From: Chitinophaga sp. E66
GTDB lineage: Bacteria > Bacteroidota > Bacteroidia > Chitinophagales > Chitinophagaceae
DNA: 64,000 bases
Assembly (NCBI GenBank): GCA_019285755.1
Contig: CP079103.1
Location: 744,001 to 808,000, forward strand
Reading direction: 5' to 3'
In this document: positions 23,908 to 27,696 of the stretch, in pieces
Numbering within the stretch: the first letter of the stretch is position 1
Layout: every line of letters starts with the position of its first letter
Position numbers and translations under genes: made by a program
The notes under the pieces: generated by a model
The model's database searches: none
What the model was told of the DNA's origin: nothing
Seen by the model: the letters and a program-made list of their open reading frames with translations, nothing else

Positions 23908-23937
23908 TTGCGTTGTGAGGGTGGACGGCTACCTTTG
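23908..23937 (+). promoter_or_regulatory. Promoter of the sulfite reductase operon (TTG-N19-TACCTTTG)
   Basis: -33 TTG 23908-23910 and -7 TACCTTTG 23930-23937, spacing 19 nt, full consensus. The transcript would start near 23943, giving a ~230-nt leader before the sulfite reductase gene. Confidence 0.75.
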
Positions 23938-23963
23938 TATTACTCTACAAATTCTATAGGAAT

Positions 23964-24038
23964 ATGGGTTATGAAATAACAAATAGGGCGATGATGCAAA
24001 TGTGCGGCTTCTGTTGGGGTAATAACCCGGCAGACTAG
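23964..24038 (+). CDS. Candidate Cys-containing leader peptide, 24 aa
   Basis: ATG 23964 to TAG 24036-24038, about 20 nt from the predicted transcript start and preceded by AGGAA. It ends MMQMCGFCWGNNPAD; the internal ATG at 23991 or 23994 could also be the start. Two Cys codons and a Trp codon lie close together, followed by a GGGT-AATA-ACCC stem-loop over the stop region and, 45 nt later, a terminator-like hairpin. The arrangement is that of a ribosome-mediated attenuator: slow reading of Cys codons when cysteine is scarce would alter folding downstream. The operon makes sulfide for cysteine, which fits. The function is an inference. Confidence 0.55.
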   Translation: MGYEITNRAMMQMCGFCWGNNPAD

Positions 24039-24081
24039 AGCGGAGCGCTTACATAGGAACATCTGTTTACAGAAATATACT

Positions 24082-24115
24082 AAGGAGCCTCCCATGTTCA
24101 GGGGCTTTTGTTTTT
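24082..24115 (+). terminator. Terminator-like hairpin in the sulfite operon leader (putative attenuator)
   Basis: AGCCTC pairs with GGGGCT, extended by A/G with T pairs, loop CCATGTTCA, then TTTTGTTTTT. It lies between the leader ORF and the sulfite reductase ATG (24173), so readthrough is needed for expression. Confidence 0.6.
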
Positions 24116-24172
24116 AAGGCACCGCGCCTCCAATGTTATGAATACCATTTTATCACGAGCAACTCATTCATC

Positions 24173-26290
24173 ATGCAAAGTTTCAGAACCGAACTGGAAA
24201 ATCCGATCGTAGAAAAGGACATCATTGAACTGGAGCAGAAGATCAGGCTCTATCGTGAAGGCAAAATGACGGACGAAAAATTCCGCTCGCTCCGCCTCGC
24301 ACGTGGCGTCTATGGACAAAGGCAGCAAGGCGTTCAGATGGTTCGCATCAAGCTCCCGTACGGTAAGATGACCCTTCGTCAATGGAAACGTATCTCCGAT
24401 ATCTCCGATGAATATTCCACCGGCAACCTGCACCTGACTACCAGGCAGGATATCCAGATTCACTTCGTGTCCCTGGATCGTACCCCTGAACTGTGGTCCA
24501 AGCTGGAACTCGATGATGTTACCATCCGCGAAGCCTGCGGGAACACGGTTCGCAACATCACTGCTTCAGATACGGCCGGCATCGACCCTAACGAGCCTTT
24601 CGACGTAACGCCCTATGCGGACGCTGCGTTCCGGTATTTCCTCCGCAACCCCATCTGCCAGGACATGGGCCGCAAGTTCAAGATGGCGTTTTCTTCCAGC
24701 GTAAAAGACACCGCGCTTACCTTTATGCACGACCTCGGCGCCATCCCCAAGATCCGCATTGTGGACGGTAAAGAAGTACGCGGCTTTAAAATACTTGTAG
24801 GCGGCGGCCTTGGCGCCCAGCCCTACCTGGCTAAAGTGACTTTCGAATTCCTGGAGGCCGATCAGCTCGTGCCGTATATAGAAAGCATCCTGCGTGTGTT
24901 CGATCGCTATGGCGAAAGGTCTTCCCGCCACAAGGCGCGCCTCAAATTCCTCATCCAGAAAATCGGTATCGAAGAATTCGAGCGCCTGGCCAAAGAGGAA
25001 TACAAAGCCCTCAAATCCAAGACCTACCCGATCGATTATACGACCTTCCCGGAAGTAGAGCTGCCCGCAGCCGATCCCGTGCTTCCCGCATTCACCATCA
25101 AGGACGAGAAGGCCTTCGAAGCCTGGAAACGCACCAACACCTTTGAGCAAAAGCAAAAAGGTTTCTATGGCGCTTACATCCGCGTGCTGTTGGGGAACAT
25201 CAGCTCCACCACCTCCCGCTCTCTCATCGAAAAGCTGGAACCAGTGGTAGGGGACGACATTCGTGTAACGGTGAACCAGGGCCTGTTGCTGAAATTCATC
25301 CGTCCGGAGCACCTGCCTTATGTCTTCAGCGTCCTGGAAGCGCATGACCTTCACAAAGCGGGTTTTGATTCAGTGGCCGACATCACCGCATGCCCCGGTA
25401 CAGATACCTGCAACCTCGGCATCTCCAGTTCCACCGGCATCGCCGTAGCCCTGGAAGACGTGATCCGCGACGAATTCCCCGACCTGATCTACAACAACGA
25501 TATCAAAATAAAGATCTCCGGTTGCATGAACTCCTGTGGTCAACATGGCCTTGCCCATATCGGCTTCCATGGCTCCTCTCTTAAAAGCGGCGGCCGGGTG
25601 CTTCCCGCCCTCCAGGTGCTCCTGGGCGGTGGCGTGCTGAGCGACGGCGCCGGGCGCGTGGCGGATAAAGTACTGAAAGTGCCCAGCCGCAAAGGCCCGG
25701 ATGTGTTGCGCACACTGCTGCACGACTATGAAGCCAATGCACAGAAAGGTGAGCTGTTCAACGATTATTATGACCGCAACGGCGAAAAGTATTTTTATGA
25801 ACTGCTCAAGCCCCTCACTGATCTCACCGCGCTGAGCGACGGCGACTTCATCGACTGGGGCCAGGCAGAAACATTCTCCACTGCCATCGGCGTAGGCGAA
25901 TGCGCCGGTGTCATGATCGACCTGATCGCCACCCTGTTGTTTGAAGCGGAAGAAAAGCTCGATTGGGCCACACAGGCCTTCGCCAATAAAGCCTGGGCAG
26001 ACGGCATCTATCATTCCTACGCCTGCCTCATTCAGACCGCTAAAAGCATTCTGCTGGACGAAAACGTGAACTGCAACACGCAGCACGGTATCATCAACGA
26101 TTTCGACAAACATTTCGTGGAAACCGGCAAGTTCCCCGTAGAAGGAACTTTTCGCGCCCTGGTGCTCCAAATTAACCAACACGAGCCCACCGAAAGCTTT
26201 GCCAAACAATATTTACAACAAGCAAAAGCGTTTTACGACCGTGCGCAGCAATACAGAACTGCCCGCCAGTCGGCCGCCGCCAATGCTTAA
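24173..26290 (+). CDS. Assimilatory sulfite (or nitrite) reductase with C-terminal HEPN-like domain
   Basis: Six-electron reduction of sulfite to sulfide at a siroheme-[4Fe-4S] centre, in the cytoplasm. Two duplicated ferredoxin-like/siroheme halves (residues ~1-540). First half: LPYGKMTLRQWKRISDIS and HLTTRQDIQIHFV. Cluster ligands: two Cys in TACPGTDTCNLG (~405-415) and two in SGCMNSCGQHG (~449-455). The last ~150 residues (from ~550) are extra to the usual enzyme and look like an all-helical HEPN-type domain (EEKLDWATQAFANKAWADG, HSYACLIQTAKSILL, EPTESFAKQYL). 705 aa, frame intact. Followed by the two genes that make siroheme, supporting a sulfite or nitrite role; the Cys leader favours sulfite. 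Confidence 0.9.
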   Translation: MQSFRTELENPIVEKDIIELEQKIRLYREGKMTDEKFRSLRLARGVYGQRQQGVQMVRIKLPYGKMTLRQWKRISDISDEYSTGNLHLTTRQDIQIHFVSLDRTPELWSKLELDDVTIREACGNTVRNITASDTAGIDPNEPFDVTPYADAAFRYFLRNPICQDMGRKFKMAFSSSVKDTALTFMHDLGAIPKIRIVDGKEVRGFKILVGGGLGAQPYLAKVTFEFLEADQLVPYIESILRVFDRYGERSSRHKARLKFLIQKIGIEEFERLAKEEYKALKSKTYPIDYTTFPEVELPAADPVLPAFTIKDEKAFEAWKRTNTFEQKQKGFYGAYIRVLLGNISSTTSRSLIEKLEPVVGDDIRVTVNQGLLLKFIRPEHLPYVFSVLEAHDLHKAGFDSVADITACPGTDTCNLGISSSTGIAVALEDVIRDEFPDLIYNNDIKIKISGCMNSCGQHGLAHIGFHGSSLKSGGRVLPALQVLLGGGVLSDGAGRVADKVLKVPSRKGPDVLRTLLHDYEANAQKGELFNDYYDRNGEKYFYELLKPLTDLTALSDGDFIDWGQAETFSTAIGVGECAGVMIDLIATLLFEAEEKLDWATQAFANKAWADGIYHSYACLIQTAKSILLDENVNCNTQHGIINDFDKHFVETGKFPVEGTFRALVLQINQHEPTESFAKQYLQQAKAFYDRAQQYRTARQSAAANA

Positions 26291-26319: not shown

Positions 26320-27094
26320 ATGCAAACATTACATCCGAAAGTGACACTGGTAGGCGCCGGCCCCGGCGATCCCGATCTGATCACGGTGAAAGGGTTGAAA
26401 GCTATTCAACAAGCTCGGGTAATCCTGTACGACGCCCTGTCGAACAACGAACTGCTGGACCACGCGCCGCAGAATTGTCTGAAACGCTTCGTAGGCAAGC
26501 GCGCAGGTATGCATGTGTACACCCAGGCGGAAATTAACCGTATGATCGTGAAATACGCACTCACCTATGGCAGCGTGGTTCGGCTGAAAGGGGGCGACTC
26601 CTTTGTTTTCGGCCGCGGCCAGGAAGAGATTGCCGCCGCGCAGCAATACGGCATCGACACTGAAGTAATACCTGGCATCAGCAGCGCCATATCGGTGCCC
26701 GGGGTCAATAAAATTCCGTAACCGCCCGCAATGTCAGCGAAGGTTTTGGGTGATCACGGGCACTACCCAAGACGGTAAACTGAGCCGCGACCTCGAATTC
26801 GCCATCCAGGCAGACACCACCGTGGTGATCCTCATGGGCATGAGCAAACTCGCGGAAATCGCCGCCATTTACGAAGCGCAGGGCCGTGGACAAGTGCCTG
26901 CCGCCATCATTCAGAACGGCACATTGCCGACCCAAAAGGTTGGGGTAGGGGTGGCCGCCGACCTGGTGACTATCGCAGAACAACAGGAGCTTCGCAACCC
27001 GGCTATCATCGTGATCGGCGAAGTAGTGCGCTTCCATGAAGCATTCCAGGAGCTGCAGTCGAAACTGGCGGACGATTATAAACTGGCCGTTTAA
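26320..27094 (+). CDS. cobA: Uroporphyrinogen-III C-methyltransferase (one frame break)
   Basis: Adds two methyl groups from SAM to uroporphyrinogen III, giving precorrin-2 for siroheme. Motifs: VTLVGAGPGDPDLITVKG (SAM site), VILYDALSN, VRLKGGDSFVFGRGQEE, EVIPGISSAI and, after a restored base near 26725, SVPGVNKIPVTARNVSEGFWVITG. ~258 aa. Sits 29 bases after sulfite reductase and 17 before the siroheme synthase gene, so it is part of one operon. It is also called sumT or cysG C-domain. Confidence 0.93.
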
Positions 27095-27111: not shown

Positions 27112-27696
27112 ATGGAGCAAAACCATCTCTTTCCCATATTTCTCAAGCTCGATCAGCTGCAAGTGCTGGTAGTGGGCGGGGGCAACGTGGGTTGCGAAAA
27201 AGTAGGCGCGATCCTGAATAACTGTCCAAATGCCCGTGTAACGGTAGTGGCCACATGGTTCGCCCCTGAATTGGCGGGCATCGTCGAAGGCTTTCCCAAT
27301 GTTACGCTGGTAGAAAAAGCATTTTCCTGCGGGGACATTTTCGGGAAAGACCTGGTAATCGCAGCCACGGCCGATAAAGAACTGAACCACTGTATCTGGG
27401 AAAAGGCCAAAGCCGCCAAAGTGCTGATCAATGTAGCAGATACCCCGGCGCTTTGCGATTTTTACCTCAGTTCCGTGGTACAGAAGGGGAATCTGAAGAT
27501 CGCCATCAGCACCAACGGAAAATCACCGACCATCGCGAAGCGATTAAAGGAAGTGTTGAATGAATCCATTCCTGAGGGACTGGAATCCATCCTGCAGCAT
27601 CTACACTCGATCCGCGACCGGCTGAAAGGCGATTTTACGGAGAAAGTGAAGAAATTGAATGAGTTAACAAGCGTTTTGGTAAGCAAGAAAGATTAA
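27112..27696 (+). CDS. Siroheme synthase, precorrin-2 dehydrogenase/ferrochelatase domain (Met8/CysG-N type)
   Basis: Oxidises precorrin-2 with NAD and inserts iron to give siroheme. Rossmann start LQVLVVGGGNVGCEKVGAIL, then VIAATADKELNHCIW, LINVADTPALCDFYLSSVV and AISTNGKSPTIAKRLKEVL, all usual for the family. 194 aa, intact. The methyltransferase is a separate gene just upstream, so the two together replace CysG. Last gene of the sulfite operon; a terminator follows. Confidence 0.93.
   Translation: MEQNHLFPIFLKLDQLQVLVVGGGNVGCEKVGAILNNCPNARVTVVATWFAPELAGIVEGFPNVTLVEKAFSCGDIFGKDLVIAATADKELNHCIWEKAKAAKVLINVADTPALCDFYLSSVVQKGNLKIAISTNGKSPTIAKRLKEVLNESIPEGLESILQHLHSIRDRLKGDFTEKVKKLNELTSVLVSKKD

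Follow-up and report, generated by a model that had tools for sequence, protein, structure and literature searches.

Classical attenuators of the trp and his type combine a leader peptide, carrying codons for the end product of the pathway, with alternative hairpins, and the Bacteroid-trp motif is a trp leader attenuator. This motif, RF01692, is a listed cis-regulatory motif of the Bacteroidota (PMC2864571); for this and the other papers cited here, the statements apply to the portions of each that were available. For the cys operons of actinobacteria there is a description of cysteine leader peptides with no conserved terminator hairpin (PMC1262725), and the polycysteine short ORFs of mycobacteria are called leaderless, and cysteine-responsive attenuators, in the title of Canestrari 2020, cited in PMC13236596. 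A predicted attenuator, uORFC-8-2, proposed to be ribosome-mediated, is associated with cysS in the Rhodobacterales exclusively (PMC8632094). Within the Bacteroidota, the transcriptome of Flavobacterium psychrophilum holds strong clues of leader-peptide attenuation before amino-acid biosynthesis operons, the operons being unnamed in the portion available (PMC9723704), and the map for Bacteroides thetaiotaomicron includes sORFs resembling leader peptides (PMC7366714). There is no Bacteroidota case in the available portion of PMC2965389, and no Bacteroidota cysteine attenuator among the matches listed from the open literature, taken on their titles and the starts of their abstracts. The preliminary description of the locus presented here knew of no described Bacteroidota case either, and none has come to light in these matches or in Rfam.

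The window, which is the whole stretch of 64,000 nucleotides that was analysed, comes from Chitinophaga sp. E66 and carries on its forward strand what is, judging from sequence comparison, very probably a ribosome-mediated transcription attenuator sensing charged tRNA-Cys, placed before the sulfite reductase gene sir. All of the elements first described, being a promoter, a 24-codon ORF, a stem-loop at its stop codon and a hairpin with a T tract ahead of sir, were found, in the region that separates sir from a divergent HAD hydrolase gene. The candidate promoter (23908..23937) has the form TTG-N19-TACCTTTG, which we take to be the Bacteroidota-type promoter consensus. It is followed by a 5' UTR (23939..23963) with a palindrome-like sequence, ATTACTCTACAAATTCTATAGGAAT, which has related palindromes elsewhere and may be an operator for an Rrf2-family protein. 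The leader ORF of 24 codons, MGYEITNRAMMQMCGFCWGNNPAD (23964..24038; ATG at 23964, TAG at 24036-24038), has Cys codons at 24003-24005 and 24012-24014, the second of which sits inside the 5' arm of H1, a candidate pause hairpin formed where the ORF ends (24007..24041; -16.6 kcal/mol, z -4.1). The Trp codon at 24015 does stand beside the Cys codons, as had been pointed out, but the argument that it is rarely used adds little, since Trp has one codon.

Directly after the leader stop, bases 24042-24050 can pair with 24085-24093 in the terminator 5' arm, giving a putative antiterminator (24040..24093; -14.4 kcal/mol, z -2.0 for the folded segment), the support for which comes from relatives. The intrinsic-terminator-like hairpin and its T tract (24083..24115) have a hairpin spanning 24083-24109, with arms at 24083-24092 and 24101-24109 (-10.1 kcal/mol, z -1.1), and a T tract that runs to about 24115; the terminators of relatives are stronger. 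Against the Rfam collection (4227 models) at gathering score there is no match in the window and, across 14 leader loci, there are only two matches, both SAM riboswitches lying elsewhere than the leader. These are near sir loci of Pontibacter (L041, 2425-2526) and Adhaeribacter (L046, 6945-7045). A lax threshold added only a snoRNA match at chance level.

The layout is shared with Bacteroid-trp and with trp/his-type attenuators, the amino acid and the genes being others. Unlike the trp/his type, H1 in the sir leader has only the bases of its outermost pairs in common with the antiterminator arm. As with the mycobacterial polycysteine ORFs, a leader with Cys codons lies ahead of sulfur assimilation genes (PMC13236596, PMC1262725), but the 5' UTR would be about 20 nt long where the mycobacterial ORFs are called leaderless (title cited in PMC13236596), and there is an intrinsic terminator where the leaders of PMC1262725 have no conserved one. 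The likeness to uORFC-8-2 lies in a short uORF, tandem Cys codons in the first stem and then an intrinsic terminator stem; the difference lies in the phylum and in the Cys-tRNA synthetase gene that is preceded, and a Bacteroidota sir leader falls outside the membership of that family as defined (PMC8632094). The sir leaders further differ from uORFC-8-2 in the explicit arm of an antiterminator, close to the stop codon, and in the tandem copies of six loci.

The genes 3' of the leader are sir (24173..26290), encoding a siroheme 4Fe-4S sulfite reductase of 705 aa, a cobA/SUMT-like methylase gene that is split by a frameshift in the assembly (26320..27094, two Pfam TP_methylase pieces), and a gene for a siroheme synthase N-terminal domain of the precorrin-2 dehydrogenase type (27112..27696; TIGR01470 over cut-off). 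Sir has both of the siroheme-reductase Pfam domains, NIR_SIR and NIR_SIR_ferr. No NCBIfam equivalog is over its cut-off for this protein, the best sub-threshold names being NirA and ferredoxin-nitrite reductase. That it is a sulfite rather than a nitrite reductase is suggested by the adjoining siroheme genes, by the Cys leader itself and by a relative (L168) in which sir follows cysH-, cysD- and cysN-like genes, named by eye. On these associations the predicted targets of the leader are genes of sulfide production.

Taken by itself, the window locus is suggestive and not striking; it is conservation in relatives that lifts the case, as judged from sequence, well beyond chance. The probability of at least 2 Cys codons arising by chance in this leader is 0.035, a generic terminator scan of the window did not list the hairpin at 24083-24109, and the antiterminator duplex of this locus alone gives p 0.65 against shuffles. 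The window terminator has a 3' arm that is one G shorter than in close relatives, which, together with the frameshift in the neighbouring cobA-like gene, would make an assembly error there possible. Further window genes also look split in the list of ORFs and the genome, of 6.29 Mb, is rated 65% complete, such that uncorrected sequencing indels are likely. The closest relatives of its sir are in Chitinophaga.

A search of genome contigs with the Sir protein gave 132 loci, of which the best 80 were taken; a Chitinophaga-type set has 38 loci (the window, L003-L034, L036, L037, L050, L056 and L069). An ORF with at least 2 clustered Cys codons is kept in 30 of the 38, with the other residues varying, so that the loss of the ORF or its Cys codons in relatives, named at the outset as what would speak against the attenuator, is not what was found. 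The Cys leaders of those 30 loci begin with MG and are located 18-27 nt past the promoter box; counted from the TTTG of the box, the ATG of the leader comes after 18, 26 or 27 nt in the window and in 35 relatives. The Cys patterns include CxxCW, CCW, MCMCCW, CCC, CSCC and HCSC. In 35 Chitinophaga-type leaders, 83 of the 743 non-start residues are Cys (11.2%), as against 1.28% in the long ORFs of the same loci, and Met is also raised (8.7% versus 1.46%). The absence of stops in the leader frame is there by construction and carries no evidential weight. The segment equivalent to H1 has a z below -1 in 20 of the 30 Cys leaders (mean z -1.44); this hairpin, the 5' arm of which contains or adjoins a Cys codon, is stable in many leaders and not in all.

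In the case of L018, L019, L020, L030 and L050, the terminator and the GGAGG(C) arm are kept and the Cys pair is absent, which would make these natural deletion variants that have lost the stretch with the Cys codons. L024, L025 and L056 have neither the Cys pair nor the terminator, and some Chitinophaga without the Cys codons retain the start-site sequence. A DNA pattern for MCGFCW, tried across 294 genomes of the family, matches only in its own genome, as the peptide is unconserved outside the Cys codons. An RNA model, R1, has a match in 39 of 40 genus genomes, the position of the match being established for the window's own genome alone, where there is a single match, at the sir leader. Weaker second matches to R1 occur in some genus genomes, some of them on both strands of one place.

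The terminator is recognised by script in 34 of the 38 Chitinophaga-type loci, and in 33 of these 34 (all but L007) the fold has its 5' arm paired with bases on or close to the leader stop, weakly in some, such that the antiterminator and the terminator would be mutually exclusive. The arms are GGAGGC or a variant near the stop, and GCCTCC or a variant in the terminator. The duplex was compared with dinucleotide shuffles in 53 leaders, comprising 47 before sir, 3 before the first gene of an operon and 3 that are first members of tandem pairs; two of the eight upstream stretches that had been added were left out, L062op for being too short and L047t1 for ending ahead of its T tail. The duplex beats the shuffles at p < 0.05 in 31 of the 53 leaders (mean z -2.5) and falls short of this in 22, the leaders being related and therefore not independent tests. 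For this reason, 25 representatives were cross-paired. Cognate arms fit 2.9 kcal/mol better than non-cognate arms (centred), with a permutation p of about 5e-5 that is generous, several of the representatives still being kin. The cognate ranks among the top three of the 25 arms for 12 representatives and ninth or lower for five (L004, L046, L053, L086 and L088). The detector peptide of L051, MYVYVLLHENCGCGIP, which entered both the duplex test and the selection for cross-pairing, overlaps, in a different frame, a Cys ORF that is likelier. As the antiterminator arm is wrongly placed from one clade to the next in the MAFFT alignments A1 and A2, these two tests stand in place of a pair-by-pair count of covariation. 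A conserved hairpin had been put forward in the preliminary description as a check on its reading; the terminator is indeed present in relatives, and the antiterminator, which goes beyond that description, changes together with it across the clades.

The position of the arm is also in keeping with this, a ribosome having a footprint of known size. The arm starts at least 12 nt past the last Cys codon in 49 of the 53 leaders and overlaps a ribosome at the stop codon in 48, with both being true of 44. The exceptions are arms too close to the last Cys codon (9 nt in L033 and L073, 4 nt in L086 and L087) and stop codons far downstream of the arm (L049, L052, L058, L060 and L064).

To follow these leaders beyond the genus, a fixed detector was used, consisting of an ATG ORF of 8-60 codons with C-x(0-3)-C and then a U-tailed hairpin. 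It matches 50 of 110 sir upstream regions, versus 7 of 316 regions upstream of other genes in the same loci. Four of these 7 control matches (L051, L061, L062 and L067) precede what is likely to be the first gene in a sir operon, by eye an aldo/keto reductase or peroxiredoxin gene, leading up to sir in the same orientation; in L051 a tRNA-like sequence intervenes. From 296 Bacteroidota genomes drawn, 48 have a Sir match, 29 of which were read as loci and later 16 more. The loci L113-L128, examined after the other statistics and outside the 53 and the 25, gave 4 matches in 16, with starts estimated from the match. The total over sir upstream regions is 54 of 126, or 51 after inspection, the matches of L020, L041 and L082 having been judged not to be leaders and removed before counts.

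Going by the tree labels, Cys-cluster ORFs before sir are present in Catalimonadaceae, Cyclobacteriaceae, Fulvivirgaceae, Flammeovirgaceae, Hymenobacteraceae, Sphingobacteriaceae and unnamed Bacteroidota, with examples outside Chitinophaga such as CWFWCCMC, CMCCMMY, CCCRYCC and YCCM. There are poly-Cys leaders before sir in another family of the same order (MMCCCCCMM in L122, MMGCCCCMM in L123) and in two genomes from outside the class, with a Sir of just 37-39% identity (CCMC and CCC..CC, in L124 and L125). All four have a hairpin with a U tail and, close to the stop, an arm that pairs with it. By these sequence criteria, the trait extends to the Cytophagales, the Sphingobacteriaceae and two genomes outside the class.

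The leader label on the Sir tree (51 of 108 rows) changes 11 times, against 36 in shuffles, a difference to which near-copies contribute; six "leader without terminator" labels were set by hand, and two of these leaders, L085 and L091, have one Cys. Ahead of sir genes that lack a leader, 20 stretches, 19 of them about 7.4 kb long and the other 1.6 kb, gave no detector match; 13 of the 20 belong to a family, f5, that the Sir tree groups with a named Flavobacterium. No Cys attenuator was found in the sampled loci of the Flavobacteriaceae kin. In Pontibacter (L038, L041, L044, L048 and L055), Cys runs lie at or near the end of the leader (ACCYPC, YTCCC, ACCCC, MRCC and SAYACC) and there is no clear intrinsic terminator. 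These are closer to the mycobacterial layout than are the other sir leaders, on the portions of the mycobacterial accounts available, and perhaps have a different output mechanism.

Two Cys-leader attenuators are in tandem in six loci (L047, L058, L060, L064, L051 and L067). In the first four of these, the peptide of the first unit ends MMCCMMCA or MMCCMMCI and has its own terminator, and the second unit (CMCCM) is placed before sir; the arm pairing of the first unit has p 0.003 in L058, L060 and L064. In L051 and L067, the first unit (SNCCCMMCV and TPCCMMCC, respectively) lies ahead of the unit preceding a peroxiredoxin-like gene, in a likely sir operon. Before cysH-cysD, on the other hand, no credible Cys leader is present in 30 Chitinophaga loci, for some of which the guessed starts may be wrong, and the attenuator may therefore be specific to sir in this genus. 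Two detector matches among these 30 (L153 and L158) were judged spurious from the peptide and its position.

Comparison recovers the ORF and the Cys codons in it, the arms of antiterminator and terminator with their geometry, and H1 in most leaders; from these we infer a start site, translation, stalling, termination and a response to cysteine, in the following way. RNA polymerase would start about 20 nt ahead of the leader ATG, with a ribosome following it, and H1, which holds a Cys codon, may pause the polymerase and let the ribosome catch up. When Cys-tRNA is ample, the ribosome would reach the stop codon and cover the 5' arm of the antiterminator at or near it, upon which the terminator hairpin could form and transcription would end before sir. 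When Cys-tRNA is scarce, the ribosome would stall at the Cys codon cluster, which mostly lies 12-33 nt ahead of the arm, leaving the arm free for the antiterminator to capture the terminator 5' arm, such that sir and the siroheme genes would be transcribed. The original proposal of a cysteine-responsive leader-peptide attenuator gains from the conserved Cys codons, the matched arms and the spread to other families.

The palindrome at the start site suggests another layer of control. CymR, a protein of the Rrf2 superfamily, is a described cysteine regulator, in the portion of the literature available, and it is possible, if somewhat improbable, that the sulfur response of sir is achieved mainly by a CymR-like Rrf2-family regulator acting at this palindrome, with the leader in a minor or fine-tuning role, a situation that would be compatible with an attenuator. 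Loose counterparts of ATTACTCTACAAATTCTATAGGAAT are upstream in 64 of 114 sir regions, whether or not there is a leader, a figure without a control set, and a related palindrome, TTTAGTCTATATTTTTATAGACTTTA, lies between an Rrf2-family gene and a cysH-like gene in the same genome (L159). The retention of the start-site sequence by Chitinophaga that lack the Cys codons would also fit with this, and the occurrence of related palindromes in the sir promoter and in that of cysH, next to an Rrf2 gene, is a hint of control in two tiers. The strict 17-base palindrome is, however, rarer in the window's own genome than its reversed control (4 versus 28), and the operator is for that reason treated as a lead; regulation at the palindrome would, moreover, leave the Cys codons and the matched antiterminator and terminator arms unexplained. 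One copy of the palindrome also lies before an ORF that by eye is TonB-receptor-like (L189).

The other alternatives change how the leader works, or whether it does. Rho-dependent or translational attenuation, in which the Cys leader controls the access of Rho or the start of sir and the hairpins are minor, would suit the Pontibacter leaders, which are without a clear intrinsic terminator as in the mycobacterial cys operons (PMC1262725, in the portion available). It is unlikely, given the conserved U-tailed hairpin, the 5' arm of which is contested near the stop in Chitinophaga and several other clades. That the ORF encodes a functional Cys-rich small protein, such as a metal or redox peptide, would account for the conservation of Cys pairs and triplets, yet the rest of the peptide is little conserved, its C-terminus tracks the RNA arm (STD, EEA, ERV) and the Cys spacing varies from CC, CCC and CCCCC to CxxC, making a peptide function very unlikely. 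The weak statistics of the single locus would fit a chance association of a short ORF and hairpins without function; such an association is very improbable, in view of the 54 of 126 matches against 7 of 316, the pairing test across clades and the clustering of the trait on the Sir tree (11 changes versus 36). The attenuator with an intrinsic terminator, responding to charged tRNA-Cys, is the reading to which the Cys codons, the arms and their spread point together.

The mechanism itself is classical, the unexpected parts being its spread within the phylum and the tandem versions. Tentatively, and with a good deal of doubt, many Bacteroidota, reaching far past a single family, could be seen as having old, fast-evolving cysteine attenuators dedicated to sir, atop an Rrf2-type repressor of the whole sulfate pathway. 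If true, some lineages would stack two sensors in series, giving a steeper response, and, with Met enriched as well, the leader may read both of the sulfur amino acids, Cys and Met. The Bacteroidota would gain a cysteine sensor that is concrete and open to testing, in which the regulatory codon is clear and the RNA switch predicted, and natural variants without the Cys codons and natural tandem versions can be compared. The range of attenuation by cysteine through an intrinsic terminator would then be well wider than the rhodobacterial and actinobacterial cases in the papers considered.
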